From Neocallimastix lanati (nom. inval.) (taxonomy: Eukaryota > Neocallimastigomycota > Neocallimastigomycetes > Neocallimastigales > Neocallimastigaceae), in the NCBI GenBank assembly GCA_016946835.1, contig JACVTC010000012.1, positions 602,001 to 666,000 on the forward strand: a stretch of DNA of 64,000 nt. Reading direction: 5' to 3'. Both the position numbers and the translations under genes were made by a program. Below, piece after piece: positions 21,505 to 63,952 of this stretch (position 1 is its first letter; each line of letters opens with the position of its first letter). The notes under the pieces are model-generated. The model made no database searches, had not been told where the DNA came from, and saw only the letters and a program-made list of their open reading frames with translations.

Positions 21505-21535
<31 letters not shown>

Positions 21536-21571: not shown

Positions 21572-21619
<48 letters not shown>

Positions 21620-26256: not shown

Positions 26257-26266
26257 GGAGGTGCAA

Positions 26267-37793: not shown

Positions 37794-37807
37794 TAAGGAC
37801 GAGACAC

Positions 37808-37879: not shown

Positions 37880-37894
37880 CTTTCCTTGCGCTAT

Positions 37895-38893
37895 TGTAAG
37901 AATCTATAATTATTTTTAACAAAATAATTATATTTTCTTAGTTAGGTTATAATTAATATAACTTTTATTTAACTCATATTTCATTTATACAATTAATTAT
38001 AATTAATAATTTATTTAATTATATATTAAAATTTTATTTAGTTTAATATTAAAAATTTATTTAATTAAATAATTTTTATACATTTAAAATAATATTAAAT
38101 TTATTTAATTATTCACTTAATTATTAAATTTATTAGTTTTAGTTTTCTCTCACTTATTAAATCATAAACTAAAACACTATTCTGTATTTTATCATGTATT
38201 CTGTATTCTATCATGTATTCTGTATTCTATTAATCATGTATTTTATTATTAATGTATTGTTTTATATTTTTTATGTAAAGTTCTATAAAATAGAACTAAA
38301 TAGATTAAATTTTAAATTTTATGATCGAAATAATTTTCATTATTTTATTCTTTTATTTTCGATCATTATATTAGATTAAGTAATCGGTTAATTAAGGTTT
38401 TTCCAATTACTTCTTAAAAGTAATCGGTTTTACTTAATTAACACGATGATCGATATGGATAGAATATCGATCAAAAAACTTATCTAGGTTTTTCTTCTAG
38501 TCTTTTCCTAGAAAAGAGATTTGTTAAGATTAGAACCCCTTTTGATTTTAACCTTATTTTGACAAAAAAGTATAAATAAGGCTCTTGAGTTCTCTTTGAG
38601 AAATCAAGAGTTATTATTATAACAATTATAATATAATAATAATAACAATAAGTTTTAACATTTAAAATTTTTAATAAATAATAAAACAAATTATTTTAAT
38701 AAAACAAATTTTATAATTAAAACTTTTCCTTATCAATTTTAGTGTTTCGTCTATTATAATTCGTTATAATAAACTCGATAATTAGAAAGAACCATAGGTA
38801 AGTATGATTCTTTTCTAAACCTTTAATATTAGCAGTTAGAGCTAATATTAATGATTAATAATTTAATTATAATTTTTTAATTATATTATTACA
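37895..38893 (+). repeat. E2 5' LTR
   Basis: TGTAAGAATC..ATTACA. TATAAATAAGG is at 38571 and the inferred RNA start AAGAGTTATTATT at 38606-38618. The complementary primer site AATAATAACTCTT is at 38893-38905. Confidence 0.9.
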
Positions 38894-39279
38894 ATAATAA
38901 CTCTTCTTAGTATAGTTTAATAGAATAGTTAATTAATTTAATAATATAATTAATTTCTAGAATCAAGTAGTACAAAATAATTTAGTGTAGTACAATAAAA
39001 ATTTTTATGATTAATAATAAATAAAATAATATAAATTATATAGAATAATCTAGAAATTAAAAAAATAAATTAATATATAGTAAATAAATTAAATATTAAA
39101 ATATAAGTAGATAATATTAGTAAATCAGATCAAAAAATCATTAATTAATAATTTAGTATAGAAATTATAAGAATAAATTAATATAAACCATAAATTAAAT
39201 ATTAAAAAATAAGTAAATAGTAATAATTAGTTGGATAAATAATTAAAATCATAAAAAATTAAAAGAATAGATATATAGT

Positions 39280-39600
39280 AATAAATAATAATAAATAATA
39301 GTAAATAATAATAAATAATAATAAATAATAATAAATAATAATAAATAATAATAAATAATAATAAATAATAATAAATAATAAATAATACTAAATAATAATA
39401 AATAATAATAAATAATAAAAAATAATAAATAATACCAAATAATAAATTATAATAAATAATAATAAATAATAATAAATAATAATAAATAATAATAAATAAT
39501 AATAAATAATAATAAATAATAATAAATAATAATAAATAATAATAAATAATGATAGTAAATAATAAATGATAAATGATAAATGATAAATGATAAATAATAA
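39280..39600. repeat. AATAATAATA microsatellite in the E2 leader
   Basis: About 300 bp of AATAAT/AATA units with few interruptions, ending in a GATAAAT variant run (39560-39595). Open frames here encode only Tyr/Ile/Leu runs and are not genes. Confidence 0.9.
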
Positions 39601-39761
39601 AAAAAAAATTAAACAACAATAAATAGCAATAATAAAATAAATAATAACAATAATAAGAACACATAAATACACTAACATATGTTTACATGATTTTAGGGAA
39701 ATAGAACTGGAAGAAGTAGGCCAAAGAAACAATATAGAAGAACCAAGACTTAGTACAGACC

Positions 39762-39990
39762 TTAGAAGCAGAAGTGTGTTAGCATCCAGGTAACAGTTTC
39801 CGGATTAAGTTTATCTGTCACAGGCAGCGATCTGGGCAGCTCTGGACTGGCCTATCCGATGTGTGGTAGGTTGCAATCGTGGTGTACGCGGGAACATGAC
39901 ACCAGTAATAGGCAAGCTGCTCCCGTCATTAAGTACATACTACTGTTTACTGCTAACGTGCTTCTGGAAAATCGTCTGGAAATGCTTGAG
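39762..39990 (+). other. Conserved GC-rich leader RNA, E2 copy
   Basis: Same order of blocks as in E1: TTTCCGGATTAAGTTTA, GCAGCTCTGGACTGG, a hairpin (CCTATC 39851-39856 with GGTAGG 39865-39870), TTGCAATCGTGGTGTACGCG, GACACCAGTAATAGGCAAGC and GCTTCTGGAAAAT. GCAGCT can also pair with AGCTGC 75 nt later. The hairpin arms differ from those of E1 and EE but keep pairing. Confidence 0.7.
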
Positions 39991-40103
39991 TATTTTCTTA
40001 TTCAACTGTTTTCTTTCGCCAAAACTTCCTAACTATGACCTTATAATCATAATAAACATACATATATATTTCATAGTTAATATAATTTATAATTTAGGTA
40101 AAA

Positions 40104-43100
40104 ATGGAATCCAATAGTAATAACGCCCAAATTCCAAGTGAAGTTGAATCCTCAAAGCTTATAACAGCTTTAACAGAATTTATTCCTACCTTCTTTTCCG
40201 CCAACGGAGTGTTATCCAAGGACTTAGCTGATAACAACAAACTTAACGTTAATGAGCTCCTGGAACAGAGTGAATTGTTTTTTAAAAAACATCCCAACTC
40301 TTTTTCCACGGACGACTTAAAAATTTCTTATGTTATCAGCATGTTACATGGACCTCCAAAGAAATGGGGACTTTCATTGAAGGCTGATGGGACTTTAAAT
40401 TCGTTAAGCTATGAGACCTTTAAAGATATTTTGATAAGCAATTTTGGGGATACTAAAGAACAGAAGGATGTTCTTATTGAACAACTTCTAAACTTAAAAC
40501 AACTTCATTTAGGAAGAGCCGCATTATATACTATTGAATTTCGAAGGTTAGCTGGACGTATTGGATGGCCGGACGATGTATTCATTGACCTAATCAAAAG
40601 AGGTCTTCTTGAGGATGTTAAAACAGAGTTCAATAAATTAGACAAACCTAAAAGTTTATTTGAGGCAACAAATTCTATTATCAATATTGATAGAAAATGT
40701 TTACTTAAGCAAAAAGTAAAGACCAATGACTACAAGCCAAAGAGTAGTAAATCTTTCAAACGAAAAAGAAACGAAACTAACATGACCGAAAACAAATTTA
40801 AACGCAATAAGCACCATAAGGGACGAGACAATGGAAGTATTTTATCAGCAAATTACACCCCAAGTCATAATAATAAAATGACTACAACTTTCTTGTTAAC
40901 CGTTAATAACAAAAAGATTAAAACCAGAATCCTTATTGACTCGGGCTCTGCTAGAAGTTATCTCTGCAAAAGCTTCGTAACAGCAAACAAAATTCCTTAT
41001 TCAAACCTCTCAAATACGATCAATGCAAAACTTCCTAATGAAAAGAATATGGCTATAAAACAAGTTACAAAACGTCTTAAGCTTACTTTCATGGACCATA
41101 CGGAAACATTTGAATTCTTTATAGCCAATTTACAACTTCAAGACGTATCTGCAATCCTTGGAAGAGATTGGTTAAGCCTTCATTCACCTTACATTGATTA
41201 CAAAAATAATAAAATTTACTTCTTGGAAAGCTACTGTAAAAACCATTGCCCTTCTGCTAAGGGTAATAGGTTTGTTTTCCTTTCATCAGATATTACTGCT
41301 TCACTCTTACCCAATAATGAACAGAAGGAAGAAATTCCTCTTGACTCAATAATTCCAGATTCCATACCTGAAGACGAACTTAGCGATATGAACATTTGCG
41401 CTGCTTTAGTTCACAATAGTGAAATTAAGAATACCAAAAGAAATAAAAAAATAATTAAAAAATATTATTATGACCTTTGTATTGTATTTGAAAAGAAAGA
41501 AGCTGATAAACTCCCTCCACACCGTGTTTATGATATATCCATTGATTTAGTTCCCGGTGCTCAACTTTATTTTGGACCAATTTATTCGTTGACTGTTGAA
41601 GAAAAGAAGGCACTTCGTGAATACATTAAGGAAAACCTTGCTAAAGGATTCATTAGAAAATCAAAATCTCCTGCTGGTGCCCCGGTGCTATTTGTTAGAA
41701 AACGTGACGGTTCTCTTAGACTTTGTGTTGACTATAGAAAGCTCAATTCTATCACCATTAGAAACAGTTATCCAATTCCTAGGATATCTGATTTGATAGA
41801 ATCATTTAAAGGTGCTATTATTTTCTCTCGGCTTGATTTAAGATCTGCCTATAACTTAGTTCGTGTCAAGAAAGGCCATGAATACCTTACTGCTTTTCGT
41901 ACTCCTTTTGGTCATTTTGAATACCGTGTAATGCCTTTTGGTTTACGTAATGCACCTTCGGTTTTTCAACGCTTTATCCAAGACATTTTTTCTGATGATA
42001 TTGGCTTGTTTCTCTTTGTCTACTTAGATGACATTATAATATATTCGAAAAACCTTACTGAACATATTAATCATGTTCATCATGTCCTTTCCTTGTTAGT
42101 CAAAAATGGTCTCTATGTAAAACTAGAAAAATGTGAATTTCACGTTCCTGAAACTACTTTTTTAGGGTTTGTTGTATCAATAAATGGCCTTTCTATGGAT
42201 AAAAACAAAGTAAAATCAATTCTTGAATGGCCTACTCCAAAAAACATGAATGAACTTCAAAGTTTCCTCGGACTCTGTAACTACTATAGGAAATTCATAA
42301 AGAATTTCGCCATAATTATGGAACCCTTAAGAATACTCCTCAAGAAGAATAACGAGTTCAAATGGAATGATGATGCTGAGAATGCCTTCAAAAAATTAAA
42401 ACTTGCTTTTACCACAGACGAAATCCTTATCTACCCCGATCCAGATAAGGAATTCACTGTTGAAACTGATGCCAGTGATTTTGCTGTGGGTTGCATTCTT
42501 TCTCAAATCATTGACAAGGATAACGAACTTCACCCTGTCGCTTTTCATTCTAGGTCTTTGTCATCTTCTGAATTAAATTATACAATATATGACAAGGAAC
42601 TACTCGCTATTATCACCGCTTTTGAAACCTGGCGTCACCACCTTGAAGGGGCTAAGTTTCCTGTTCAAATCATTACCGATCACAGGAATTTATTATATTT
42701 TAAAAAGCCTCAACATTTAAACTAACGCCAGATAAGATGGAGCCTCTTTCTTTCTAAGTTTGACTTTAGGATTTCGTTCAGACCTGGATCAAGGTGTGGT
42801 AAACCAGATTCGTTGTCGAGACGTCCGGATTATAAATCCGTGGTTTCCCTCCACAACAAAGACCGTCCTTTATTGGATGATAATGCCTTATGTTGTGCAA
42901 ACACTGATAATATTAGTAGTTTGATTGATGCCCAAACGGCTGACACATATTGCAAATCTATTTTAGAAAAGATTAAAACTAAGTCAAACACAGTTAAAAG
43001 TTCTTTATTTTCTTTAAATGAAGGGGTCTTACATTTCCAAAACAGAATCATCGTCCCATCCACTTTAAGAGCAAGAATTTTGAAATCTTTTCATGACTCA

Positions 43101-44138
43101 CCCACCAACGGACACCAAGGTATTGACAAAACTCTTGATAAAATCAAGAGATACTACTGGTGGCCTAATATGAAGAAAGATATTCATAATTATGTACTTT
43201 CTTGTTCAACTTGTGCTAGGTGTAAAATTCGTAGACATAAACCCTACGAAAAAATTCAACCGTTGCCTGTTCCCAATAAACCATGGGAAATTATTGGGGT
43301 TGATTTTATAGTTTCGTTACCTAGTTCACAAGATTGCACATGTATTATGGTGGTTTCGGATCACTTAACAAAGATGATCCATTTAGTTCCTTGCTCCGAC
43401 GTCCCTTCCGCTGACCTGACCGCCAAGATGCTCCTTTACAACGTTTTTCGATACCATGGATTCCCTAAAATCATTGTCTCTGATCATGGCTCCCAGTTCT
43501 CTTCTGAATTTTGGACCTCACTCTGCTCAGCTCTAAATACTAAGCCAAGACTCGCTACTGCTCATCACCAACAAACAAATGGTCAAGTCGAAAGGGCTAA
43601 TTCCGTAATCGAACAATATTTACGATGCTACTGTTCTACTGCCCAAAATGAATGGTGCTTTTATCTACCTCTTTGTGAAATGGCTTATAACAACTCATTT
43701 CACAAATCTATAAACATGTCGCCTTTCTGTGCAAATTATGGTTTTAATCCAGTATGCAATATTGACTCTCCTCCTGTTCTTTTAAAAGATAATGCCTCTG
43801 TACTTACTAGGGATTGGTCTGCCCATTTTGATGCCCTTAAAAAGCACCTTATCAAAGCTAAAGAAGATTTCAAAAAGTTTGGTGACTTTAGGAAAGCTTC
43901 TGGTCCTACTTTCCATGTTAACGACATGGTTTGGTTGAAAAGGTATTACTTCTCCAATGAACCTGCAAAAAAGCTTTCTAACCAGTATCTTGGACCCTTT
44001 AAGGTCATAGAAGTGAGGGAAAGAATGAACTACCGGCTTGAATTACCAGAAAATCTTCATTTACACCCGGTATTTCATATCTCGCAGTTGGAGCCTTATA
44101 CTGAAAGAGACATAGGATTAAAGGAACCATCACCATAA
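40104..44138 (+). pseudogene. E2 Gag-Pol polyprotein with one nonsense codon
   Basis: Aligns with E1 from end to end (1344 codons). The protease DSGS is near residue 279, RT YLDD begins at 640, and RNase H has ETDAS. TAA at 42723-42725 (codon 874) replaces the Gln found in E1 (LNQRQIRW), a single C-to-T change. The frame then stays open to 44138 through the integrase zinc region, the D-D-E core (GVDFIVS, VSDHGSQF, GQVERANS) and HPVFHISQLEPY. As in E1, no chromodomain follows. Confidence 0.9.
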
Positions 44139-44147
44139 AGGGAGCAA

Positions 44148-45127
44148 TGTAAGAATCTATAATTATTTTTAACAAAATAATTATATTTTCTTAGTTAGGT
44201 TATAATTAATATAACTTTTATTTAACTCATATTTCATTTATACAATTAATTATAATTAATAATTTATTTAATTATATATTAAAATTTTATTTAGTTTAAT
44301 ATTAAAAATTTATTTAATCAAATAATTTTTATACATTTAAAATAATATTAAATTTATTTAATTATTCACTTAATTATTAAATTTATTAGTTTTAGTTTTC
44401 TCTCACTTATTAAATCATAAACTAAAACACTATTCTGTATTTTATCATGTATTCTGTATTGTATTAATCATGTATTTTATTATTAATGTATTGTTTTATA
44501 TTTTTTATGTAAAGTTCTATAAAATAGAACTAAATAGATTAAATTTTAAATTTTATGATCGAAATAATTTTCATTATTTTATTCTTTTATTTTCGATCAT
44601 TATATTAGATTAAGTAATCGGTTAATTAAGGTTTTTCCAATTACTTCTTAAAAGTAATCGGTTTTACTTAATTAACACGATGATCGATATGGATAGAATA
44701 TCGATCAAAAAACTTATCTAGGTTTTTCTTCTAGTCTTTTCCTAGAAAAGAGATTTGTTAAGATTAGAACCCCTTTTGATTTTAACCTTATTTTGACAAA
44801 AAAGTATAAATAAGGCTCTTGAGTTCTCTTTGAGAAATCAAGAGTTATTATTATAACAATTATAATATAATAATAATAACAATAAGTTTTAACATTTAAA
44901 ATTTTTAATAAATAATAAAACAAATTATTTTAATAAAACAAATTTTATAATTAAAACTTTTCCTTATCAATTTTAGTGTTTCGTCTATTATAATTCGTTA
45001 TAATTAACTCGATAATTAGAAAGAACCATAGGTAAGTATGATTCTTTTCTAAACCTTTAATATTAGCAGTTAGAGCTAATATTAATGATTAATAATTTAA
45101 TTATAATTTTTTAATTAAATTATTACA
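44148..45127 (+). repeat. E2 3' LTR
   Basis: Like the 5' LTR but one tandem unit shorter, with a few substitutions. It is followed by TAT and then directly by the E3 LTR. Confidence 0.9.
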
Positions 45128-46006
45128 TATTGTTACGGAACTAGCCAAAATACAATAAACTAATGATTTAAATTATACAATTCGAAATTATAATTAAATT
45201 TAATAACTTTATATGTTAATTAATTTAAACTATTTTTATAATTTCATAATTTTATTTTTAATTTAAAATAATTATATAAATTATCAAATTAAATTGATTA
45301 ATAACTAATTATTAAATAATTATTATTTTATTAAATTGATTAATGACTAATTATTAAATAATTATTATTTTATATTAATTAAATTGATTTATTATTATAT
45401 TTAATTATTATTTATATTAAAATGTTTTAAGAATTATATTATCGAAAATATTATCAATAATTTTATTGTTAAATTTATTAATTTTATCATTATTAATATT
45501 TTGTCATTAAAAATAATATTAATTATATTAATATTAATATTTTTATTATTAAAATAACTTTTAAAAAATATTATTAAAATCACATGTAATAATTAATTCT
45601 AATAAGAATTAAAATAATTATAAAATTCATGTAGTAAAAAAAAAAATATAAAAGAAAAAGAAAATACTTAATAAAAAATTTAAGAGTTAATAAAAGATAA
45701 AAAAAAGAAAATCTAATTATTAAGAATATATTATTTTTGAAAATAAAAATTTAAATTATTAAAAATCCTGCAACATTTGGCGAGCTATGCAGGACTCAAT
45801 CAAAAATAATATGAAAATTAATAATTAAAAATAAAATATTGAGTTAAAAATAATTAATTGTTTTAAAAAAAAAAAATTTTTTAAAAAAAAAAAAAGCGAA
45901 AAGAGAAGAGTAGAAAACGAAGATTTTGGAATTAGAAGAGCTACTTCCTAGACTGGACGAAAACTTGAAGGACGTGGACTCTTGGGGAGACGAGTTTATT
46001 CGAATA

Positions 46007-46770
46007 ATGAAACTAGCCAACATTACTAGTCCTTCTAGTATTCATACTTGGCCATGGAATGCACAGAAGGGAAACTCAGAGGAGTTTTACAGGAGCTTGT
46101 GACTACTGATCAAGAAGGAAATGAAGCCTACCCATCGTTTCAAGAAATAAAGAAAGCGTTAGAAGACGCAATGGAAATAACCCCTCAAGAGAAGTGCAAA
46201 AGACTTCAGAAGATGGTTATTCAAAAAGGAGAGTCTATTAAAAATTTTAATTGGAGGTATAAAAAGCTATACAATAATCTTAGTAAACTTTATCAGACCT
46301 TTATAACCGTAGACGACTGTATCGATTCCATAGCTTACAGACCTTACGCAAGAGCTCAAGTAATAACGCAAAGGTGTGAAGATCTTGAAGAGGCATTCGA
46401 AGAAGCAGAACTCGCTGAGAGAGCCGAAGAAAGAAGGAATAAAAGAAATGAAACTATCATGACAGCCGTATATACTAATCAAAGTTCTAGGCTAGATAAA
46501 TTTATAAACAAAAATCATCCATTCAAACAATTTGGAATCAATAATCATCAACAGAAAGATAATATAAACTATTGTGGTAAAAACAGTAAAGCAAATCAAA
46601 AATTTAAAAATAATTCTGTAATTTCCAAGAAACCATCAAAGGAGTTAAAATGCTTTAAATGTAACCAAATTGGACATGTAATTAGACAGTGTCCATATAG
46701 TTATAAAGAGTTAGCCGAAATGGAAGAATCTGGAAAGTTGACAACTGAAAATAACTCTTTAAACTATTAA
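46007..46770 (+). pseudogene. E3 Gag with CCHC zinc knuckle
   Basis: Read from about 45920 or the ATG at 46007 (MKLANITSPSS), with a 1-nt frame break near 46050, the protein continues as MECTEGKLRGVLQELV to 46770. The body resembles retrotransposon Gag (KCKRLQKMVIQKGESIKNF). A perfect CX2CX4HX4C knuckle (CFKCNQIGHVIRQC) lies near the end. No start ATG upstream of 46007 is in frame. The stop TAA overlaps the ATG of the next frame by one base. Confidence 0.75.
46758..46764 (+). other. Candidate -1 frameshift site T TTA AAC
   Basis: The heptamer is in the correct phase in the Gag frame (TCT TTA AAC TAT TAA), two codons before the stop. Slipping back one base leads directly into the following frame (CTA TTA ATG GGA). 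This is one of the strongest known eukaryotic -1 slippery sequences. Confidence 0.65.
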
Positions 46771-47204
46771 TGGGAAGAAGGAAAACTTCCACTAATCAAA
46801 CCAATAATTTAAAACTAGACGTAATAGCCGTAGCCGCAAGAAACGCAAAAGATAAGCAGAAATATCAACCTTATGAGAAATTACAAAAATTAACAACCTT
46901 AAGGGATAATCCAATTCCAATACCAGTTCCAACAAATAGGAAAGAAAATAATTTAAAAAGAACCAACAATAAAATAGTGATAGAAGAAAAACAAAATGAT
47001 TCTAATACAAATGAAAATACTGAAAAATTGAAAGAAATTGATCTATCAGTAATTGCTCAACCTTCAATAAACAAATCAAAAAGGGACTCGAAAGAACAAA
47101 GAAATAAAGATATATATCAAGAAGCAAAAGTAATGAATGAATCCAACTTAAATGAAAAAGACTCTTTCTCAAAAGGTAAACAAATTCTAAGCAAAAACAT
47201 ATAG
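46770..47204 (+). CDS. E3 linker frame, unknown function
   Basis: A 144-residue, strongly charged, Asn/Lys/Glu-rich frame (MGRRKTSTNQ..) that lies in the -1 phase relative to Gag and in the +1 phase relative to pol. It has IPIPVPTNR and many acidic/basic stretches but no recognised domain. It could be a Gag C-terminal extension or a protease spacer. Just before its TAG comes C AAA AAC (47192-47198), a weaker slippery-type heptamer that would pass reading into the protease frame. Confidence 0.55.
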   Translation: MGRRKTSTNQTNNLKLDVIAVAARNAKDKQKYQPYEKLQKLTTLRDNPIPIPVPTNRKENNLKRTNNKIVIEEKQNDSNTNENTEKLKEIDLSVIAQPSINKSKRDSKEQRNKDIYQEAKVMNESNLNEKDSFSKGKQILSKNI

Positions 47205-47206
47205 CA

Positions 47207-48049
47207 ATGTTAGAACCGCAACATGAATATGATATAAATACAGATTTAAATTCAATAACAGCGAACATTACATTTGCACAGTTGTTGGATATTAGTCCAA
47301 AACTACGCTCTCAATTAACTAAAGCTTTAAAGTTAAAAAATGTCCAATGTGATGATAAAATGGAAGAAGTCATTTTATCAGCCATATCCAAAGATGACAT
47401 TGCAACATGTGAATGTTATATCAACGGTAGAAAGGGTAGTGCATTTTTAGACACGTGTGCAAGTATTAATATAATTTCAAGAAAATTTTTAAAGAATTTA
47501 GGAACTTTGAAACCTTTTGGTTACACTACTAATAATATCATACAAATCACTACAAAAACTAGCATTTCTTCTGAACTTTACTTATTAAAAGTTGAAATTG
47601 GAAAATTGTGTATTCAAGACATATTCAGAGTAATTGATTATGAACAAGACTTATTTGATGTACTTATAGGCTACAAAACTTTAAAAGAAAATAATTTATT
47701 TATAAATCCAATCAATAATTATTTATGTCAAATGAATGAAAATGAAAGTTTTAAGAAAATAGTATTATTATCAAATGATACAAATGATTCAAATGATTCA
47801 AACTGTATCGAAAAAGATAATGAAGACAACTTTGACAATAATTCTATGCTATTTTGTTTTATCAATAAAATTAATACGTCTAAAGAAGTCAATAAAAAAT
47901 CAGCAACTAACACTAAAATTGATGAACCTATAACAATGGAAATGAAAAATGATGATACAGAATCCAAACAAGATAATGAGGAAAACAATATAGGAACAAA
48001 AAACATTTCTAATGAAAAAAGAAACTTGGTTATGCAAATAATAGATTAG
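47207..48049 (+). pseudogene. E3 aspartic protease region
   Basis: Frame from MLEPQHEYD. The protease core reads ECYINGRKGSAFLDTCASINIISRKFL. The catalytic triplet is D-T-C instead of D-T-G, which may impair it. The second half is Asp/Asn/Ser-rich. It ends at TAG 48047-48049, but the RT region continues in the same frame 12 codons later, so one nonsense codon separates them. Confidence 0.7.
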
Positions 48050-49822
48050 AGCCCATCGTTTATTAGGAAAAAATTTAAAAAATTATTGAAAAACAACATA
48101 GAAATCTTAGCTATTAAAATTGATGAATTGGGAAGAACAAAGCTACTACCACACTCTATTCAAATTAAAGAAAATACAACTCCAATAAAACAAAAATGTT
48201 ACAGACTATCAAAGATTCAAGCGCAAGCACTTAAGAAAGAAATTATAAAATTACTACGAAATAAATTAATAGAACGTTCCTGTTCTCCATGGTCCTCACC
48301 TGTAATTCTTGTTCTAAAGAAAAATAATAAATGGAGAATGTGTATCGACTTCAGGAAATTGAATAATGTTACCATAAAAGACGCCTATTCATTGCCATTA
48401 ATAGATGATATTCTTTTTTCTATAGGGAAAAATGTAAAGATTTTTACGACACTTGATTTATTCTCCGGGTTTCATCAAATCCCGATGAACCTTGAAGACA
48501 TCCCAAAAACTTCTTTCACTACGATGTATGGGAATTACCAATTTAAAGTTATGCCTTTCGGACTCTGCAACGCCCCAGGAACCTTTCAACGCGAAATGAA
48601 TAGGATATTCCTTCCTCTAATTGGAAAATGCATGTTTATTTACATTGATGATTTGATTATATTCTCTACCAGTCTCGAAGATCATATTTCAGATCTTAAT
48701 AAAGTTTTTCAAATTATAAAAGATAACGGTCTAAAAATCAATCTTGAAAAATGTAAGTTTTTTAAAGAATCCGTCGAATTATTAGGTCACACTGTCTCAA
48801 TCAATGGAGTCTCTACTATTCCTTCAAAAACCAAGGTAATTTTTGAATGGCTTCCACCGTCAAACATTAACCAGTTACAATCCTTCTTAGGAGCCGTAGG
48901 ATATAACCGAAAGTTTATTTTTAATTTCGCATCAATCGCTAAACCTCTTTTTAAACTTTTAAAGAAAGGAGTGAAGTTTTCATGGGGGGAGAAAGAAAAA
49001 GAAAGTTTTGAAGAATTAAAAAACCGTTTGATTACTGCACCTATTTTATCGATGCCCGATTTTGATAAACAATTTATCATACGAACCGACGCCTCGTTTA
49101 ATGGAATAGGCGGAGTACTGTTACAAAAGGACGATGCTGGAAATGAGAAACCTATTCATTTTATAAGCCGTTCTTTGAAGCCAGCAGAAAAAAATTATGG
49201 AATCACTGACTTGGAAGGAACAGCCGCTTTTTATTGTGTTAAAAAATTTAAACCTTATATTTCTGGAAACAAACAAGAAACGTTACTCTTCACCGACCAC
49301 AAGCCATTAATAGGACTTTTTAAAAATAAGGAAACAATGAACTCTCGACAAACAAGATGGGTTCTACTTCTCTCTATGTTAAAGGTAAATATAATTTACG
49401 AACCAGGGAAGAAAAATGTCATAGCAGACGCGTTATCCAGGATGAGAATGAAAAATGAAGAAGTAGTAGCAACCTTATTGTCTGACTTGAACATTAATAT
49501 TGACAACAAACTAATTAGTAAATTCAATGATAAATTTATCAAGGTTAATAACGAAGAATATTTTGTTAATCAAGGATCTCTAAGAAAAGTTATAAAAGAA
49601 GATAAACAAAAAATTAAATTAATTCTCGAGGCACACAGGATTGGACATGAAGGGGTATTCAAGACTTATAACCGACTGAAGAGAGACTATTACTGGGTAA
49701 ACATGATATTAGATGTTAAGTATTTTGTTAGTACATGCAAAAATGTCAGTTATTTAAACCGCAGACTTTTAATACTCAAACGGAGAATATTCCCACAAAA
49801 CCGGGCTTACCTTTCACTGTAG
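48050..49822 (+). pseudogene. E3 reverse transcriptase, RNase H and integrase zinc region
   Basis: In frame with the protease. RT blocks are PWSSPVILV, MCIDFRKLNN, TTLDLFSGFHQIPM, MPFGLCNAPGTFQ and YIDDLIIF (48641). RNase H has RTDASFNGIGGVL and FTDHKPLIGLF. The integrase zinc region begins with HRIGHEGVFKTY..DYYWVNM and STCK. Then one base is missing near 49743-49750, and the frame runs off to the stop at 49822 while the correct reading continues in another frame. Confidence 0.8.
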
Positions 49823-51817: not shown

Positions 51818-51937
51818 AAAATGGTGGAGAATCCGGGCGTTGACACGTTAGGATAAATTGAAAATAAATTGAATAAAAAAAAAAATATAAAAAAAAAATT
51901 ATAATAAAAAAAATATATAGATAGATATAAATATCAT

Positions 51938-51982
<45 letters not shown>

Positions 51983-52018
51983 ATAATAAAAAAATATATA
52001 GATAGATATAATTATCAT

Positions 52019-52056
<38 letters not shown>

Positions 52057-52837
52057 TGTTGGTATTCATTAATACTTAAAAAAATATATAAATAATAATA
52101 ATAATTAGTTATATAGATTTAATAGTAAAGAAATATTATTGAATAAATAAAATTTTAAGAGAATATAAATTTTAGGTATAATTATTATATTATAGGCTTA
52201 TAGGGAGTATAAGCTATAATAAATATTAGATTATAATAAAATTGTATATTGATTAAAAAGAAATTATTCAAATAATATTTTAGTATTAAATTTATATAGG
52301 AAATAATAATAATAATAATAATAATTAATTATATATATATAATAGGAAAGGTATATAATAAAATAAATAAAATTTTAAGAGAATATAAATTTTAGGTATA
52401 ATTACTATATTATAGGCTTATAGAGATGAGATAAGCTAATAATAACTAATAGATTATAATAAAATTATATATTGATTAGAAAGGAATTTTTCAAATTATA
52501 TTCAAATATAAAATTATATACAAATATTATATAAAATAAAATACTATAATTCGGTGGATATGTATATATATATAAAAATAACAAAAAAAAAAAAAAAAAA
52601 AAAATTAGTAAATAAAAAAAAAAATAAAACTAAATAATAATATTTAATCAATTATAATAGGAATTAAATTATATTAATAATAGAATTACTTGATTAGTAT
52701 TTATATATATTTATTATATTAAATTTATAATAATTAAATAATTACAAGACATTATAAAATTATATACCATTATTAAAAATTACTAACTAAAAATATAACT
52801 AATTACAAGTGAATAAAAATTTGAATGAATAATCAAA
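51818..52837. other. E4 leader with internal repeats
   Basis: Non-coding. After the primer-like site come two A-run units (ATATATAGATAGATATAA.. at about 51913 and 51985). A diverged direct repeat follows (about 52137-52270 and 52355-52490) carrying TTTTAAGAGAATATAAATTT and TATAGGCTTATAG. Confidence 0.6.
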
Positions 52838-53674
52838 ATGGAATTATCTGAGAATTTAAATAAGAAATTAAATCAATTGTGCAAAAAGTGTAACGACTTC
52901 AATAAAACCATTATAAAAGAATTTGAAAATTTATCTAATGATATTATAACTATTAATTTGTATAAAAATTATATATCAGAAATAAAGCCTCCTAAATATT
53001 AGAAATCTGTAATCCGAAATAATAATAATATTTTTAAAATTTATTATGTTGAGAATTGTAGAGATGTTGGAAGATTTGAAAAATACTTAAAATTCAATAA
53101 GATACAAACCAAAAATAAAATCTCCATACAAGAGGAACAAATTATAATTAATAGAAATAATAGTAATTTTAACCTACTTAAAAGATTCAGAAGTTATTAT
53201 AATTCGGAAGATAATATTAATAATAATAAAAGAAAAGAAAATATTATTGATATGAAAGAAGTCGAAAATAAAATAAGTATAGCTGATAAAAGAACATCTG
53301 ATATACAGGGCGATAACGAAATTAAGGAACAAGAACCAAGTCATAGAAATGAGGGTCTACAAAGAGTTTGTGGAGAAGAAGAAAAGAAAAGCGATAATGT
53401 TAAGAAAGAAAAATTAATAGCGATGAAGATTAAACCTGTTAATAAAGAAATAAATGAAGAAAATACTAATTCAACTTTGATTAAGTCAAGAATAAAAAAA
53501 ATAAAAATTAATTCTAAGAAACATAATAATATAATTTTTAATAAAAATAAAGCAAAGAGTATTAAAATTATTGTTCTAAAGGAAATTTTGAGTAAAACTT
53601 GTAATAATAGAAAGGATACTAAAACTCTAGAACGTAATTATAAAATTAGAAAGAAGAAAAAGACCCATATTTAA
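52838..53674 (+). pseudogene. E4 single ORF, unknown (Gag-like position), one stop
   Basis: A 279-codon frame from ATG 52838 (MELSENLNKKLNQL) to 53674, interrupted only by TAG at 53000-53002. It is Lys/Asn/Glu/Ile-rich, with LCKKCNDF near the start and a very basic C-terminus (IRKKKKT). No domain is recognised. By position it could be a Gag or RNA-binding protein. The 140-residue part after Met 53252 is uninterrupted. Confidence 0.55.
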
Positions 53675-54200
53675 GTAAATTGAGACTTCAAAGGATGAAG
53701 TCTAAATTTAGGGGGGAAGTCATGGTACGGGACGCCCTGATAACTATGAAATAAGCAATAAATTTGAAAATAAAGTTATAAGATTAAATATTTAAATTTT
53801 TAAAAAAATAAACAATTATAACCTTAAATTAGATAAAAAAGAATATAAAAAAGATGTAAATAAGAAAATAATTATAAGGGGGGAGAGATCAGAAAGAAAA
53901 GAAAGAAAAAAAAATATAAATAGGACAAAAATATAAAAAAATGTAGTGTAGAATGGAGATATAATAAGAAATAAAAATATATAGTTAGTTAGATTATAAT
54001 AAAAATGTAGTAATTAAAATAATGTATAATTAAGTAATATAATAAATAAAAAAAAAAATATTAATAAAATAATAATAAAAAAATATTTTAATAATAAATA
54101 AATAAAAGTTATTAATTTATGTGTTTATTCAATTTAGAATAATTTATCTTAACTAGAGTAGTGTCAAAAAAGCCCAAGGTACAATAACACGTACCACTAT

Positions 54201-55171
54201 TGATAAATAACAAAATTATTAAATTAAAATAAATAATAAAGAACAAATTCTTGTCTAACTTAACCCAAAAATTAATCCATTCTATAAAAAAAAATTAAAT
54301 CCATATTAAAGAAAATTTAATTAAATAAAAATAATTAAAATAAAATAATAATAAATTAATTAATCATTAATAATTTTAATTAAAAACTAAAATAAATTAA
54401 TAAATAATATTTTTCTAAAACTACAAATAAACAAAATAATAAACAAATTTAATAAATTATAAATAACAAATAAACAAACTTATAAACATCTCAAAATTAA
54501 AATTAACTAGTTAAATAATTTTTTAAGTTACTTTTATTTAAAATAATGATTATTTTATTTATTTTATAACTCAACTTTTATAAACAAATTGTAATTAAAA
54601 TAACATTTTAAAACTCATCTTTATTAATATTTTAATTGTAAATATTGTTTAATTTAATAATAAATTATTCTTTATTTCTCTTTTATTAATTTTATTATTT
54701 TTAATGTAAATAGTTTAAAATCAAAGAAAAATATAAAAACATGTAAATATTTCTTATAAATTATTCTTTATTATTAATTATTTAATAAATTATTATAGAT
54801 ATTTTATTAGTTTTAATAATCAAAAAGTATGATTATTAATTATTTTGATAAATTATTATATATTTTATTAGTTATTAATAATCAGTTTTATTATTAAAAT
54901 TTAAAATAAATTAGTATAAATAATCAATATTTCATTTTATTATTTTATTAGTTTTAACAATTATTTTATTAATTTAAACAAAATTAATTATTAAATAAAT
55001 AAAGATTAATATTAAAATAAAAATAAATTTTTTAATAAAACATTTTTGTGTTTAATAATAAAACATATTTATTTTTTTAAATTTCTTAAATCAATTTTAT
55101 TCAGTATTTATCCTTTTATTCACTTCTACAAAATTTAATTTTTGTAAATTAAGAATATTAGGTATAAATCA
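54201..55171 (+). repeat. Solo LTR Y1
   Basis: Runs TGATAAATAACAAAATT..GGTATAAATCA with CTAT on both sides (54197-54200 and 55172-55175). It is nearly identical to Y2 at 62357-63332, which has a different target duplication. That shows this is a mobile unit and gives both its exact ends. Non-coding. Confidence 0.8.
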
Positions 55172-55175
55172 CTAT

Positions 55176-55778
55176 TGTTATAGTTTGCTTATTATCTTAA
55201 TTTAGAATTTAATTTCTAAAAGTGATAACAAAATTAAATGTTTTATAATCAATAAATTAAAATTTTATTAAAACACAAAATATCTTAAACTTATAAAGAA
55301 AAGCAAATTTCTTTTAAGTTAAAAGATAATAAAATTTTAAATTAATAATTTTTGAGAAATTAATTATTTTTTTTTTTATTAATTCTGTTTCTTTAAATTT
55401 GAGATTATTTTTACAAGTTTATATATTTTTCTTTTAAATTAAAGATTTTAAAATAAAACTATCTAATTATTATTTTTAAACAATTATCATTATTTTTAAA
55501 CTTAAGTTTACATTAAGATTTTTATAATATAACATTTTTAATTTTTATTATCAAAATTACATTGTTCTTTAAAATAAAATATTTAATATTTAATAATTTT
55601 AATTATTTTAACAATTTAATTTATTTATATTATTTATTTAAAATATTTACTTTTATTATTATTAATTAATTTATAGTTATTGTTTAGATGGTAATATGAT
55701 TTATTTTATTTTGTTTAATAATTTTATTCATTTTCAATAATATAATGTTTTATTGATTTATAATTTAATCCTTTATCA
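55176..55778 (+). repeat. LTR-like element AA
   Basis: Runs TGTTATAGTTTGC..CTTTATCA, after CTAT. Its first 50 bp resemble the right end of CC read in reverse (TTATTATCTTAATTTAGAAT). Non-coding. Confidence 0.45.
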
Positions 55779-55783
55779 CTTTT

Positions 55784-57289
55784 TGATACGGGGTGTCACT
55801 AAATACCTTGTATTTCCTATTAAATACTCTTAATAATAATAAAATAAAATTATTATTAAATATTCTTATTAAAATCTTTCATTAATATCAAATATAATAA
55901 AAATTATTATTAAATATTCTTATAAATTTCTTTTATTAATATTAAATATAATAAAAATTATTATTAAATATTCTTATAAATTTCTTTTGTTAATATTAAA
56001 TATAATAAAAATTATTATTAAATATTCTTATAAATTTCTTTTGTTAATATTAAATATAATAAAAATTATTATTAAATATTCTTATAAATTTCTTTTATTA
56101 ATATCAAATATAATAAAAATTATTATTAAATATTCTTATTAAATATTCTTTTATTAATATCAATTTAATAAAAATTATTATTAAATATTTTTATAAATTT
56201 CTTTTATTAATATCAAATATAATAAAACTTATTATTAAATATTCTTATAAAATTCTTTTATTAATATTAAATATAATAAAAAATTATTATTAAAAATTCT
56301 TATAAATTTCTTTTATTAATATCAAATATAATAAAAATTATTATTAAAAATTCTTATAAATTTCTTTTATTAATATCAAATATAATAAAAATTATTATTA
56401 AATATTCTAATAAAAATCTTTTATTAATATCAAATATAATAAAAATTATTATTAAATATTCTAATTAAATATTCTTTTATTAATATTAAATCTAATAAAA
56501 AATATTATTAAATATTCTTATTAAAATCATTTATTAATATCAAATCTAAAAAAATAATTATTAAATATTTTATTAATATTAAATATAATAATAATTATTA
56601 CTAAATATTCTTATTAAAAATTATATAATATTTAAATCATTACTAATTCTTATTTTTATATTAAGAATAATAAAAACCTATTTCAATAAATATTTGATAT
56701 AAAATACAGAATTATAAGTTTCTGTATAATATTTTCTAAACCTTTGAAATAAACTAAAAATAAATCAAAAATCAAAAATAAATTAAATCTTTATTAAAAA
56801 TAAAAATGAACTAAAATACAGAATTTCAATAATAAAAAAATTGATCCAAAATACAGAAAATATCAATTCTGTATAATTCTCTCTCTGAAAAACAATATCA
56901 AGAAGAAGCTACCGCCCGGAATGCCCTTCGTGATACAATCTCTAAATTAATTTTTTATATTTTAATTTAATAAATGTTATTTTTTTTTTTAAAAAAATAA
57001 TTTAAAATAATAGTTAAAAATTAAAATAAAATAGTTACAATAGTTTTTTTTTATAAAGAATATATTATTAATAAATAAAATGTATTAAAATAAAAGTATA
57101 AAAAGAAGAATAAAATTCTTTCTTTTTAATACTTGGAACAAATAATTTTAATTTTAAATTTAAATAAAGAATATTTTAAAATTTAATTTTTTTTTTCTTG
57201 TTTCCAAATTTATTTTTATAGTTATGTGTTAATATTTATTTTTTTTTTTTGTTTTGAATATCTTAGTGTTTCAACCCCAGCCCGTATCA
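55784..57289 (+). repeat. Solo LTR T3 (TGATACGGG family)
   Basis: Colinear with T1, flanked by TTTT (55780-55783 and 57290-57293). It has the longest internal array of the family (about 55850-56600), then GAAGCTACCGCCCGGAAT and CCCGTATCA. Confidence 0.75.
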
Positions 57290-57293
57290 TTTT

Positions 57294-58421
57294 TAATACG
57301 GGATGAATAAATAAATATAAAAATTAATAAATTTAGAAAAATTGTTAAGATAATAACTGAATTTCAATTTCAATTTCAATTTCAATAATTCAGTTATTTA
57401 AATTTCAATATTAATAATAATATATAATAATTATTATTAAATTAACTTTATTAAAATATTTAGGAATTAGTCTAGGCCAACTAATTGACTAAATATTATT
57501 TACATATTGAAATTAATATATATTAAATAATGTAAACACGTGATTGTCATATTAAATTAATTTCTACATATTATATTTTAATTATAAAATATAATATTTA
57601 GCTATATTAGATTCTTATATTTTATTTATATTAAATATTTATATTATTATCTTATTTTATATTATCAATATCAAACTTATATTAATACTATTACATATTC
57701 ATATTAATAATTAATATTTTGATAATTAATTATTTTATATAAATACATGTTTAAATCTTTTGATTAATCCTTTGTAGGATTATTGTAATTTAAATTATAG
57801 TAATAATTATATAAAATAATAATGTAATAAAATATTATTAAGATTAAATAAAATTTATATTTTAAATAAAAACTTAATTATAAAATTTACTAATAACAAT
57901 ATATTTTAAATAAGAGTAAAATTAAGTTATTAATTAATTACTATAATTTGGCATCTTGACCTAATCGTTAAGACCAAATTATCCTAAAAACTTTAACAAA
58001 AATAATAAAATATAATTAATTAAAGTTAAAATAAAATTATATAGTTTAAAATAATAATAAACAATAAAAAAAAATTAAAAATAAATAAAAATAAGAATTA
58101 TTAAAAAAAAATAATAATAATATTTTAGAGATAGAGAAAATAAATATAATTAAATGGTCTTAGAGAGAGGCCTTAATTGAGATTTTTAGTTAGTAATTAT
58201 TAGTAAAATAAAATAATAAGAGTAATGTTAAAAATGTAATTAATGTAAAATTTAAATAATTATAAATAAAGTATTAAATAAATAATAATAAAATATTTAA
58301 GTTTTATTTAATATAATTATTGTGTTAAAATTATTAATTGTATTATTAGAATATATTAATTTTCCTCAAATAAAATATTGCAAGTCCCATAAAAGTATAC
58401 GATTATAAAAATATCGTATCA
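57294..58421 (+). repeat. LTR-like element U
   Basis: Runs TAATACGGGATGAAT..ATATCGTATCA between T spacers. It shares about 640 bp with U' at 13338-13995, including GCATCTTGACCTAATCG. Its remaining right third is unrelated. Non-coding. Confidence 0.6.
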
Positions 58422-58424
58422 TTT

Positions 58425-59804
58425 TGATACGGGGTGTCACTAAATACCTTGTATTTCCTATTAAATACTCTTAATAATAATAAAATAAAATTATTATTAA
58501 ATATTCTTATTAAAATCTTTTATTAATATCAAATATAATAAAAATTATTATTAAATATTCTTATAAATTTCTTTTATTAATATTAAATATAATAAAAATT
58601 ATTATTAAATATTCTTATAAATTTCTTTTATTAATATCAAATATAATAAAAATTATTACTAAATATTCTTATAAATTTCTTTTATTAATATCAAATATAA
58701 TAAAAATTATTACTAAATATTCTTATAAATTTCTTTTATTAATATTAAATATAATAAAAATTATTATTAAATATTCTTATAAATTTCTTTTATTAATATC
58801 AAATCTAATAAAAATTATTATTAAATATTCTTATAAATTTCTTTTATTAATATCAAATATAATAAAAATTATTATTAAATATTCTTATAAATTTCTTTTA
58901 TTAATATCAAATATAATAAAAATTATTATTAAATATTCTTATTAAAATCTTTTATTAATATAATAAAAATTATTATTAAATATTCTTATAAATTCTTTTA
59001 TTAATATTAAATATAATAAAAATTATTATTAAATATTCTTATTAAAATCTTTTATTAATATCAAATATAATAAAAATAATTATTAAATATTTTATTAATA
59101 TTAAATATAATAAAAATTATTACTAAATGTTCTTATTTAAAATTATATAATATTTAAATCATTACTAATTCTTATTTTTATATTAAGAATAATAAAAAAC
59201 TATTTCAATAAATATTTGATATAAAATACAGAATTATAAGTTTCTGTATAATATTTTCTAAACCTTTGAAATAAACTAAAAATAAAACAAAAATCAAAAA
59301 ATAAATTAAAACTTTATTAAAATAAAAATGAACTAAAATACAGAAGAATTCCAATAATAAAAATGATCTAAAATACAGAAAATATCAATTCGGTATAATT
59401 CTCTCTCTGAAAAACAATATCAAGAAGAAGCTACCGCCCGGAATGCCCTTCGTGATACAATCTCTAAATTAATTTTTTATATTTTAATTTAATAAATGTT
59501 ATTTTTTTTTTAAAAAAACAATTTAAAATAATAGTTAAAAATTAAAATAAAATAGTTATAATATTTTTTTTATAAAGAATATATTAAAAATAAATAAAAT
59601 GTATTAAAATAAAAGTATAAAAAGAAGAATAAATTTCTTTCTTTTTAATACTTGGAACAAATAATTTTAATTTTAAATTTAAATAAAGAATATTTTAAAA
59701 TTTAATTTTTTTTTTCTTGTTTCCAAATTTATTTTTATAGTTATGTGTTAATATTTATTTTTTTTGTTTTGAATATCTTAGTGTTTCAACCCCAGCCCAT
59801 ATCA
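58425..59804 (+). repeat. Solo LTR T4 (TGATACGGG family)
   Basis: Colinear with T1 and T3; array at about 58490-59110, GC patch at about 59425-59460. The right end is CCCATATCA, one change from the family CCCGTATCA. Confidence 0.75.
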
Positions 59805-59808
59805 CTTT

Positions 59809-60774
59809 TGGTAAAGAATGAATTAATAACCTTTATTTTATTATTAATAATTCTATACTAAATTGTACTTTCCTATATTCTTGATAACTAAACTTAATAA
59901 TAAAATTTAATTTATTTTGATATAAATTAATTTTAACTTGTAAATAATGTAAATCAATTTTAATTAATTACTTCATTGTTATATTATTAAATATATGTAT
60001 ATATTAAAATACAATTGTAAATATTAAAATTATACTTTTAAGATAATAAATTATTAAAATTATTAATTAAATATTATTATAAAAATTATTATAAATTATT
60101 AATATTATAAAATTATTAAAATTATTAAATATTATTATAAAAATTTATTTATTATAACTATTAAATATTATTATAAAATTATTAAGATTATTAATTAAAT
60201 TTATTATTAAAAATTATTATTAAAAATTATTAATTATTATAAAAATTTATTATTTAAATATTATCAAATTTATTAATTAAATATTATAAAAATTTTATTT
60301 TATTTTTGAAAATAATTACAAGTATTATTTAAAATAAGAAATGATTATTAAATTTATTATATTAATCTTTAAAAACAATTTATTTAACTTAAAAATATCA
60401 AAGAAAATAGTAAAACTATTTTCTATATATTTATTTTATAATTATTTTTAATTAAATTATATTTGAATATTATATTATTATATTTATAAAAATTAAAACA
60501 AAAATGAATTATTGATATAAAATTAATTCAATAATTCTATAAAATTACTTAAATTATAAACAACTAATTATACTTTAAATTTATAAAAAAATATAAATAT
60601 TGTAACAATTTCTTAAAAATTAAATATGTGTACTTAAAAAAATAAATTTTTATATTAATAAATAACAAATAACTTTTAATAAAAAGAATTTTTTTTATTT
60701 AAAATCAAAGCAGGGTAATACCCGTCCCCCCCTGCTTGATTTTAAATCCATACGAATCAACCCCGAGTCTACCA
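59809..60774 (+). repeat. Solo LTR V
   Basis: Runs TGGTAAAGAATGAAT..GAGTCTACCA (TGGTA/TACCA inverted ends) with CTTT on both sides (59805-59808 and 60775-60778). Near its right end a 14-bp inverted repeat (AAAATCAAAGCAGG with CCTGCTTGATTTT) could form a strong hairpin in the RNA. Confidence 0.65.
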
Positions 60775-60777
60775 CTT

Positions 60778-61610
60778 TGTTACGATACAAATAATAAATA
60801 AAAAATATATAAAAATTAAATAAACTATTAAGATTAATTAATAAATAAATATGAATAAAATACTAAAGTATTAAAATATATAATAAGGAAATTAAATATG
60901 TATAAATAACTAAATTATTTAAAATAATGTATTAATTGTATTTAATTAATATTGTAATAGTAAACAATTAGATATTTTATTATAAATAATTAAAATTATA
61001 TTTATTATTATTTTATATTTTTATTATAAAATTTTTATTATACTTTATTATATTTTTATTATTATCTTATATTAAATATTATATTAAAATTATATTTTAT
61101 TATATTTTATTATTATAAAATTATTATATTTTTGTTATTATATTTTTATTATATTTTATATTTTTATTTTTATTTTTACTCCAATCAAATAAATGTTTTA
61201 AAGATATAAAAAGAACAAAGTAAAACAATACTTTAGTTCTTCCTTTTCTTTCAACTTTATTTTTATATTTTTCTTTTAATTTTTCGAGAATGAAATTGTA
61301 AATATTTAATATTAGTATTAATAAATAATTAAATAAATAATTAAATAAAATTAAATTGTTCTCTAGTTAAATTGATTAATTTTGTTTTTGTGTTTTATTA
61401 TAGTTAAGGATAAAAATAATTTTGGTTAGTTTAAATATTTAGTTTGTTTTTGTAATTTAGTTTTAATTTAGAGATAAATTTTATTAAAATATTTATTTAA
61501 GTTATTTATATTAGAATAGTTAAAATAATATTTATTTTGTTAGTGAAAAATTAGATTTTTAATTATTAGAATATATTATTTTATTTTTAATAATCTTCAA
61601 TTCTGTACCA
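60778..61610 (+). repeat. LTR-like element W
   Basis: Runs TGTTACGATACAAAT..TTCTGTACCA between a CTTT and a GCT spacer. AT-rich, no ORF. The boundaries follow from the neighbours more than from its own sequence. Confidence 0.4.
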
Positions 61611-61613
61611 GCT

Positions 61614-62351
61614 TGATAAAAGATGAAATTTATAATTTAAAATTAATTAATAAACTAAAATTAATAATTTATAATAATAATTTACTAAACTATAAAATCA
61701 TAAATAATTATTATAAAAAGTTAGTATTTTCAAATAAAATTTTAAGATTAATAAAAGAACAATGTAAATTTAAATAATTAATATAGAAATTAAATTTAAA
61801 TAATTTTATTATGTAAAATATATTTTATTATATAAATATTTGTTATTATTTGATATAATTAGTAAATAGTTATTTTATTTTAAAGACTTAAAACTAATTC
61901 TTTTTTTTAAAATAGAAAATAAGACTTTAAATAGAATTAAAATAGTAATACTTTTTCTTTTTTAATATTTCTAAAAGATATAAATAGTAATTAAAGTAGA
62001 TAGTTAATTATATAGTTTAATCTTAACGAAAATTATAAAAACATGTAATAATTCTTATTTAAAAGAACAACATTTTTGTTAACATTTTTGTTTATCAAAA
62101 CTTGTTCAATAAATACTTATTTTATCTTTATTTAAATTTAAAAGTATTTATTTAATATTATAAATTTAAAACTTAATAATAATTAATATTTAAAAATTAA
62201 ATAAAATTTATGTATTAAAATAACTTCAGTGTTTCTAATAAATAAATTTTAAAAAGTTTTATAATAAAACATATTCAAATTATCTTAAAATTTATAACTT
62301 TGATAAAGAGTTATTAATAAACTAAAGTGAGTTATTAATAATTTCTTATCA
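61614..62351 (+). repeat. LTR-like element X
   Basis: Runs TGATAAAAGATG..TTTCTTATCA, with GCT before and CGCTC after. Non-coding. Confidence 0.45.
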
Positions 62352-62356
62352 CGCTC

Positions 62357-63332
62357 TGATAAATAATAAAATTATTAAATTAAAATAAATAATAAAAAAC
62401 AAATTCTTGTCTAACTTAACCCAAAAATTAATCCATTCTAAAAAAAAATTAAATCCATATTTAAGAAAAATTAATTAAATAAAAATAATTAAAATAAAAT
62501 AATAATAAATTAATTAATCATTAATAATTTTAATTAAAAACTAAAATAAATTAATAAATAATATTTTTCTAAAACTACAAATAAACAAAATAATAAACAA
62601 ATTTAATAAATTATAAATAACAAATAAACAAACTTATAAACATCTCAAAATTAAAATTAACTAGTTAAATAATTTTTTAAGTTACTTTTATTTAAAATAA
62701 TGATTATTTTATTTATTTTATAACTCAACTTTTATAAACAAATTGTAATTAAAATAACATTTTAAAACTCATCTTTATTAATATTTTAATTGTAAATATT
62801 ATTTAATTTAATAATAAATTATTCTTTATTTCTCTTTTATTAATTTTATTATTTTTAATGTAAATAGTTTAAAATCAAAGAAAAATATAAAAACATGTAA
62901 ATATTTCTTATAAATTATTCTTTATTATTAATTATTTAATAAATTATTATAGATATTTTATTAGTTTTAATAATCAAAAAGTATGATTATTAATTATTTA
63001 ATAAATTATTATAAATATTTTATTGGTTATTAATAATCAATTTTATTATTAAAATTTAAAATAAATTAGTATAAATAATCAATATTTCATTTTATTATTT
63101 TATTAGTTTTAACAATTATTTTATTAATTTAAACAAAATTAATTATTAAATAAATAAAGATTAATATTAAAATAAAAATAAATTTTTTTTAATAAAACAT
63201 TTTTGTGTTTAATAATAAAACATATTTATTTTTTTTTTTAAATTTCTTAAATCTATTTTATTTAGTATTTATCCTCGTATTCACTTCTACAAAATTTAAT
63301 TTTTGTAGATTAAGAATATTAGGTATAAATCA
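62357..63332 (+). repeat. Solo LTR Y2
   Basis: Second copy of Y1, with GCTC duplicated on both sides (62353-62356 and 63333-63336). Confidence 0.8.
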
Positions 63333-63336
63333 GCTC

Positions 63337-63939
63337 TGATGCATGTCCAGTAGAAATAATATAAAATAATAGAAAAATTATTTAGAAAAATTATTAATAT
63401 AAATATTTATTAAAAATTAATTTTATATAATGAATCTTAAAATATATTATTAAAGATAATTTATTATTATTAATAATTATTAAAATATTAAATTAAATAA
63501 TAATATTAAAATTATTAAAAGAATTGTTGATTATATAGTAAAATTAGTTATATTAATTATAACGGAGATTGAATGTTTAATTAAATTGATGTTAATATTA
63601 AAATAATTTTTAAATAATGTTAAACAATATGAATTAATAGTTATAAGTAAAAAAATTATGAATATTTATATTTATTAATTAATTTTAGTGTTTCGACAAA
63701 TAAAATTTATAAAATTAATAAAAATATAATTATGAAAATAATTTATAAATAAATATTTTCTTTTTTTTAATGAATAATAAAACATGTATTTTTTATATGA
63801 TAAAATATAATAAATAAAATAATAAAAGATAAATAAATAAAAAGTAAATATAATTATTGTAATATAATATTCTTGGAGTAATTCCCTTTTGCACAAACGC
63901 CCAACTAACATATACGATATTGAATAAAATATCGTATCA
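63337..63939 (+). repeat. LTR-like element Z
   Basis: Runs TGATGCATGTCC..ATCGTATCA, with GCTC on the left and CGCTC on the right. Non-coding; the minus-strand frame at 63675-63992 is Tyr/Phe-rich noise. Confidence 0.5.
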
Positions 63940-63952
63940 CGCTCAATATTTA

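Follow-up and report, generated by a model that had tools for sequence, protein, structure and literature searches.

How does a 26-kb stretch beside a single tRNA-Cys gene come to be filled, without a break, by LTR retrotransposon units that stand only a few bases apart? The question arises from the window analysed here, a 64,000-nucleotide stretch (C24:602001-666000, C24 being the contig that carries it) of a genome searched across 199 Mb in 762 contigs. The train covers 37895-63939 (26,045 bp) and holds 13 LTR units end to end: from the tRNA-Cys gene come three elements with paired LTRs (E2, E3 and E4), followed by ten solo LTRs, with 14 nt between the end of the gene (37880) and the start of the first LTR (37895). 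Very probably, the train represents at least 13 separate Ty3-like integrations at one Pol III target, with older units displaced outward. The relevant features, in window coordinates, are:

20593..27061, plus strand: E1, sister element beside the neighbouring tRNA-Cys (20503-20576); LTRs identical (0/796 aligned)
37722..37793, minus strand: tRNA-Gly (TCC), the cluster's second gene (ARAGORN; 39.6 bits)
37807..37880, minus strand: tRNA-Cys (GCA), the anchor gene (ARAGORN; Rfam RF00005, 60.6 bits)
37891..37894, plus strand: CTAT, the present target adjoining the tRNA, 11-14 nt from its 5' end
37895..45127, plus strand: E2, Ty3/Gypsy element (LTRs 37895-38893 and 44148-45127; 4/980 differences)
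45131..51336, plus strand: E3, Ty3/Gypsy element (LTRs 45131-45775 and 50690-51336; 1/645 differences)
51341..54196, plus strand: E4, short element (LTRs 51341-51817 and 53723-54196; 10/471 differences)
54201..55171, plus strand: Y1, solo LTR with CTAT on either side
55176..55778, plus strand: AA, solo LTR, one substitution from the nearest copies compared
55784..57289, plus strand: AB1, solo LTR with an internal 54-bp tandem repeat
57294..58421, plus strand: AC, solo LTR starting TA instead of TG, ends less certain
58425..59804, plus strand: AB2, solo LTR, of the same family as AB1
59809..60774, plus strand: AD, solo LTR, copies with matching ends
60778..61610, plus strand: AE, solo LTR, copies with matching ends
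61614..62351, plus strand: AF, solo LTR, copies with matching ends
62357..63332, plus strand: Y2, solo LTR, of the same family as Y1, end-to-end matches
63337..63939, plus strand: AG, outermost solo LTR, the first to arrive on a serial reading, copies with matching ends
63940..63944, plus strand: CGCTC, outermost copy of the target

Clusters of tRNA-Gly and tRNA-Cys on the minus strand are repeated along the contig, and at least 31 genome matches cover most of the pair (40 were scored among 153 candidates). Between these clusters and the outer ends of the trains sit minus-strand LINE-like elements (about 4761-8444, 15600-20400, 32950-37721 and 63950-64000), three with endonuclease or reverse transcriptase matches, most with a poly(A) tail at the 3' end and some 5' truncated close behind tRNA-Gly; it is the poly(A) end of the last that follows the outermost CGCTC. 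In the tRNA-Gly gene beside the train the final bases differ from other copies, at the join with the LINE, whose junction seems to replace them. As LINEs follow the tRNA pairs, a mobile LINE with the pair as its 5' end was considered; five tRNA-pair units (703, 726, 737, 743 and 217) have one LINE junction in common, and the idea was rejected, since the LINE sequences behind several pairs differ, as do their junctions.

The unit boundaries were assessed by querying the genome with units carrying a 20-nt overhang. For five solo LTRs, copies elsewhere match both ends to the base (AA 21-623 of 643; AD 21-986 and AE 990-1822 of 1842; AF 21-758 of 778; AG 21-623 of 644), which bears out the unbroken train with 3-5 bp spacers reported in the first-pass annotation. 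Y1 and Y2, queried without overhang, have end-to-end matches, and their ends, with those of E2-E4 and AB, are also supported by alignments among the copies examined. For AC, only two other copies among the matches listed reach the right end and none starts exactly at the left, where ends vary and many matches cover the inner part only. Automatic detection recovered nine of the 12 inter-unit junctions. No unit in the train was seen interrupted by another, so the units are not nested. LTRs apparently starting TA rather than TG occur three times (window 57294, window 27065 and C24:592441), and sequence related to the AB tandem repeat spans some 4.6 kb at C24:203672-208262 (L024).

Coding content places E1, E2 and E3 in Ty3/Gypsy (Metaviridae), a group marked by paired TG..CA LTRs around gag, protease, reverse transcriptase, RNase H and integrase in that order. 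The clearest frame is that of E1, a single 1331-residue Ty3-type Gag-Pol (capsid, protease, reverse transcriptase, RNase H, integrase) whose best PDB match is Ty3 Gag-Pol (7q5b_A, 7.5e-146), extending through the integrase; its pol shares 58% identity with a protein labelled Orpsp1, which we take to denote Orpinomyces, and 62-72% with sixteen further hits (P0002-P0017), which makes an anaerobic gut fungus the probable host. E2 carries capsid to RNase H in one frame and an integrase core with SH3 in a second, E3 a zinc knuckle, protease and RT-RNase H-H2C2 spread over three frames, and in E4 no pol match was found. A long AATAAT-type simple repeat lies behind the first LTR of E2 (39280-39600). 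All nine pol-bearing paired-LTR elements in the columns examined are oriented away from the tRNA. A fixed orientation of LTRs in general was rejected, since 13 tRNA-adjacent LTRs point away and ten in the same direction, a count of 23 (two duplicates dropped) in which 16 assignments rest on 67-76% identity only.

The association with tRNA genes extends well beyond this locus. An LTR-type end, defined by five strict motifs in tRNA-oriented upstream sequence, lies 11-18 nt upstream of 44 of the 55 leading tRNA genes sampled (mode 14); of 1760 control windows of equal width placed farther upstream of the same genes (-40 to -300), 74 contain one. This near-constant distance identifies the tRNA as the cue for insertion. 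By isotype the rate is 26/29 for Cys, 6/7 for Asn, 8/13 for Arg, 2/2 for Ala, 1/2 for Ser, 1/1 for Phe and 0/1 for Thr, the last a possibly false ARAGORN prediction containing a 95-nt intron; the Cys loci were selected by similarity to the present one and the Arg and Asn loci come from among the best Rfam hits. Among tRNAs within 60 bp behind another tRNA the figure is 0/39, a weak control given how little space an LTR would have there. All 11 misses (L036 included) were counted as such, even where four (Ser592, L094, L101, L103) resemble ends with one base changed and two (L042, L057) show a CA end that the five motifs do not cover, L057 being a mapped AG copy; L048, L104 and L107 look empty. 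L104 lies in a region (C555:330271-333608) where tRNA-Arg copies recur about 540 bp apart, without an LTR end at the usual distance. The loci are partly non-independent, a few being identical across contigs: over the 60-120 nt compared, upstream sequences coincide for L033/L034, L045/L046, L094/L101 and L096/L097, which suggests duplicated or haplotype contigs.

Directly beside the tRNA, a paired-LTR element stands in six of 12 examined columns, with LTR differences of 0/796 (E1), 0/686 (C24:217k), 0/482 (703k), 3/466 (743k), 4/737 (Ala578) and 4/980 (E2). Each is flanked, by eye, by a matching target repeat of 4-5 nt, that of E2 one base short. Insertion within about 1-20 bp upstream of a tRNA and a target duplication of 4-5 bp, both seen here, are the behaviour of Ty3-like Pol III-targeting elements.

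One mechanism would account for these observations. The integrase, similar in sequence to that of Ty3, would be directed to the region where the tRNA-Cys gene begins, most likely via TFIIIB as for Ty3. It would insert the LTR some 14 nt (11-18) upstream of the mature tRNA, cutting with a stagger of 4 bp and a wobble of roughly one base. Each newcomer would then re-duplicate the same flank and land on the tRNA side of its predecessor, pushing older units outward, many of which would be reduced to solo LTRs by recombination between their two LTRs. A cut one base outward would add to the flank the T of the neighbour's TG, and a cut one base inward would leave the flank one base shorter.

It is in the spacers that such a history may be legible. 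The 12 between units are 3-5 nt each and 46 nt in total (summed by hand); with the two outer flanks included, the series reads outward CTAT, TAT, CTAT, CTAT, CTAT, CTTTT, TTTT, TTT, CTTT, CTT, GCT, CGCTC, GCTC, CGCTC, the first five as originally reported. Neighbouring spacers are alike beyond chance (edit-distance sum 14 against a shuffle mean of 27.1, p = 8e-5), and distance from the present flank grows outward (rho 0.84). Across columns, spacers match the flank of their own column over those of others in 8 of 25 cases (shuffle mean 3.2, p = 0.004), and in 5 of 16 with the present train removed (p = 0.016).

Under an order model that combines a 4-bp stagger with a wobble of one base, framed after the present train had been seen, outer-to-inner arrival requires two base edits and the reverse ten; shuffled orders average 17.4 with a minimum of 7, and none of 2000 was as good. 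With the outermost unit first, 11 of 13 right-hand spacers are explained unchanged: the flank is CGCT after AF, followed by GCT plus T at AE, CTT plus T at AD, CTTT at AB2, TTT plus T at AC, TTTT at AB1 and CTTTT minus one at AA. This run, AF to AA, needs no edits, which only two of 5040 orders achieve, the actual one included. Edits are required at Y2 and Y1, with one further base to reach the present flank, a step at which the script counts two (total 4) owing to a cut at nine letters. The passage from CGCTC through CTTT and TTTT back to CTTT would thus be free of mutation, and a single T-to-A change would then give CTAT. The outer TTTT/CTTT and GCTC spacers had been taken as a possible record of a changed target; one-base wobble about the same target, albeit in a post hoc model, is the better explanation. 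Without wobble the two directions tie at six edits each, so the direction depends on it. The extra T that the model predicts is absent from E2 and, by eye, from a 703k element. The spacers of the present train suggest an arrival order with the outermost unit first.

Elsewhere, outer-first order is favoured by none of the three other columns, whose spacers were hand-picked (GGTTTA entered as GGTT): forward and reverse edits are 3/3 in column 737 (4.2% of shuffles as good, the only one to beat most shuffles), 1/1 in 703 (all as good) and 4/3 in 622 (49% as good). Column 611, beside a tRNA-Ser, has the spacers CTATA, CTATA and CCATA (window 10499, 11457 and 12426) and TCCA, unlike its own present flank.

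Age provides a separate view of the order, taken as LTR-pair divergence for full elements and as divergence from the nearest genomic copy for solos. The latter is weak, since it depends on the copies compared (3 to 8 loci per family): Y1 12/969, AA 1/603, AB1 6/641, AC 19/1014, AB2 7/635, AD 21/964, AE 9/832, AF 9/734, Y2 10/969 and AG 7/601, the AB units being dated by their last 640-650 bp only. The first-pass annotation had expected age to rise with distance from the tRNA and would have read the lack of such a correlation as evidence against layering. The trend over all 13 units is non-significant (rho = 0.47, p = 0.10) and over the ten solos absent (rho = 0.07, p = 0.85): the two innermost units (E2, E3) are young, with no gradient beyond. 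On that yardstick, the result counts against strict layering. Among 13 paired-LTR elements in the examined columns, age and distance are likewise not significantly related (rho = 0.29, p = 0.34), and adjacency to the tRNA does not go with significantly younger age (p = 0.12). This set was kept by judgement, one member (667c) lacking the TG/CA flag, and uses separately counted LTR differences for E2 (4/980) and E4 (10/471); excluded were internal tandem repeats, LINE and tRNA-unit pairs, separate solo LTRs of the same family, the C24:209-217k pair (no tRNA to its left), the AB pair of 217 and the pair of Ala571. LTR divergence itself seems a poor clock here: in the 667k column the first element's 5' LTR is nearer to the LTR of another element (99.6%) than to its own 3' LTR (98.2%), and exchange of LTRs between elements is therefore likely.

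Three other explanations must be weighed. The one that survives best, although unlikely as an account of the train and compatible with the main explanation, is insertion also at LTR-LTR junctions of an existing train, in which case position would not strictly follow time. Such insertion would likewise yield complete units and repeated spacers, and young units do stand outside older-looking ones: AA (1/603) lies beyond Y1 (12/969) and E4 (10/471), and in the 667k column (L014) a 9-kb element with 12/843 LTR differences is followed outward by a Y-family element of 5.2 kb (C24:677331-682552) that has 1/1108. The 4-nt repeat of this Y-family element seems to take in the last base of the inner element, and a late insertion at the far junction is possible. 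Against this stand the near-constant tRNA distance at the leading genes, the spacer changes that fit outer-first order (two edits) and not the reverse (ten), and the paired-LTR elements, which occupy the innermost three of 13 positions (by hand, 1 in 286 by chance), as had been claimed.

Growth of the train by tandem duplication or unequal crossing-over of LTR blocks is very improbable. Families Y and AB each occur twice and tRNA-Gly/Cys clusters are repeated on the contig, but the 13 units belong to 11 families, of which the eight searched genome-wide each have many scattered copies; Y1 and Y2 differ at 13/968 and each has slightly nearer copies elsewhere, the six nearest copies of AB1 and of AB2 exclude the other, and no group of several units was seen to recur in the train with its order and spacers preserved. 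Equally hard to credit is an assembly artefact joining repeats, for although some tRNA-upstream sequences are identical on different contigs, the units carry private differences, the spacers make a consistent series, and at six loci, picked for adjacency, the same families again meet in unit-spacer-unit junctions. For the present train, repeated insertion beside the tRNA with outward displacement is well supported by where the units end, by their spacers and by the tRNA distances; of the original interpretation, that part and the innermost position of the paired elements stand, the changed target is better read as wobble, the age gradient is not established, and strict order everywhere is not supported.

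As in Ty3 of Saccharomyces cerevisiae, the pol is of Ty3/Gypsy type, that of E1 having Ty3 as its best PDB match, and tRNA-adjacent LTRs occur in both orientations; unlike Ty3, with its 5-bp target repeat, the repeat here is mostly 4 nt, the stack is 13 units deep and most sampled leading tRNA genes are occupied. Ty3 integrates 1-4 bp away from where tRNA transcription begins, a position some 15 bp from the mature tRNA (PMC5911963; PMC5006619). Tj1 of Schizosaccharomyces japonicus, another Ty3/Gypsy element, inserts 5-11 bp from mature tRNAs in a genome whose centromeres hold tRNA clusters interspersed with LTR elements, a similar arrangement to that found here, except that the Tj1 insertions at Pol III genes are all gene-oriented (PMC4600332; on fission-yeast centromeres see also PMC10085805) while the nine pol-bearing elements here point away. 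DGLT-A of dictyostelids likewise inserts just upstream of tRNA genes, at about 15 bp, and a table footnote states that earlier insertions are displaced when further elements integrate at that tRNA gene; the available text gives twenty insertions in D. discoideum and describes no deep ordered train (PMC5006619). Ty3-gypsy elements listed in a table of the review PMC5911963 as inserting a short way upstream of tRNAs are Ty3, Ty3p, Tj1, Tyl3, Tyl6, Ylt1, Beta/Tca8 and DGLT-A. A search of a limited literature collection found no report on tRNA-targeted LTR elements in anaerobic fungi. With tRNA-targeted insertion and displacement already known in yeasts and Dictyostelium, the mechanism itself is ordinary; what is unusual is the depth and legibility of the train.

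A wider reading, somewhat less probable than its converse, is that each tRNA gene in the genome heads a time-ordered column of retrotransposons, the spacers encoding arrival order in their lengths and letters without recourse to a clock, as the one-base wobble of the integrase would rewrite the target at each event by gaining the T of TG or losing a base. Were the direction in which a column grows known, retrotransposon families could be placed in time order independently of divergence, LTR clocks could be checked, and the precision of a Pol III-guided integrase across evolutionary time would become visible. What is probably an anaerobic gut fungus would also join the hosts of tRNA-targeted integration; in it, one and the same short interval separates an LTR-type end from most of the leading tRNA genes sampled.
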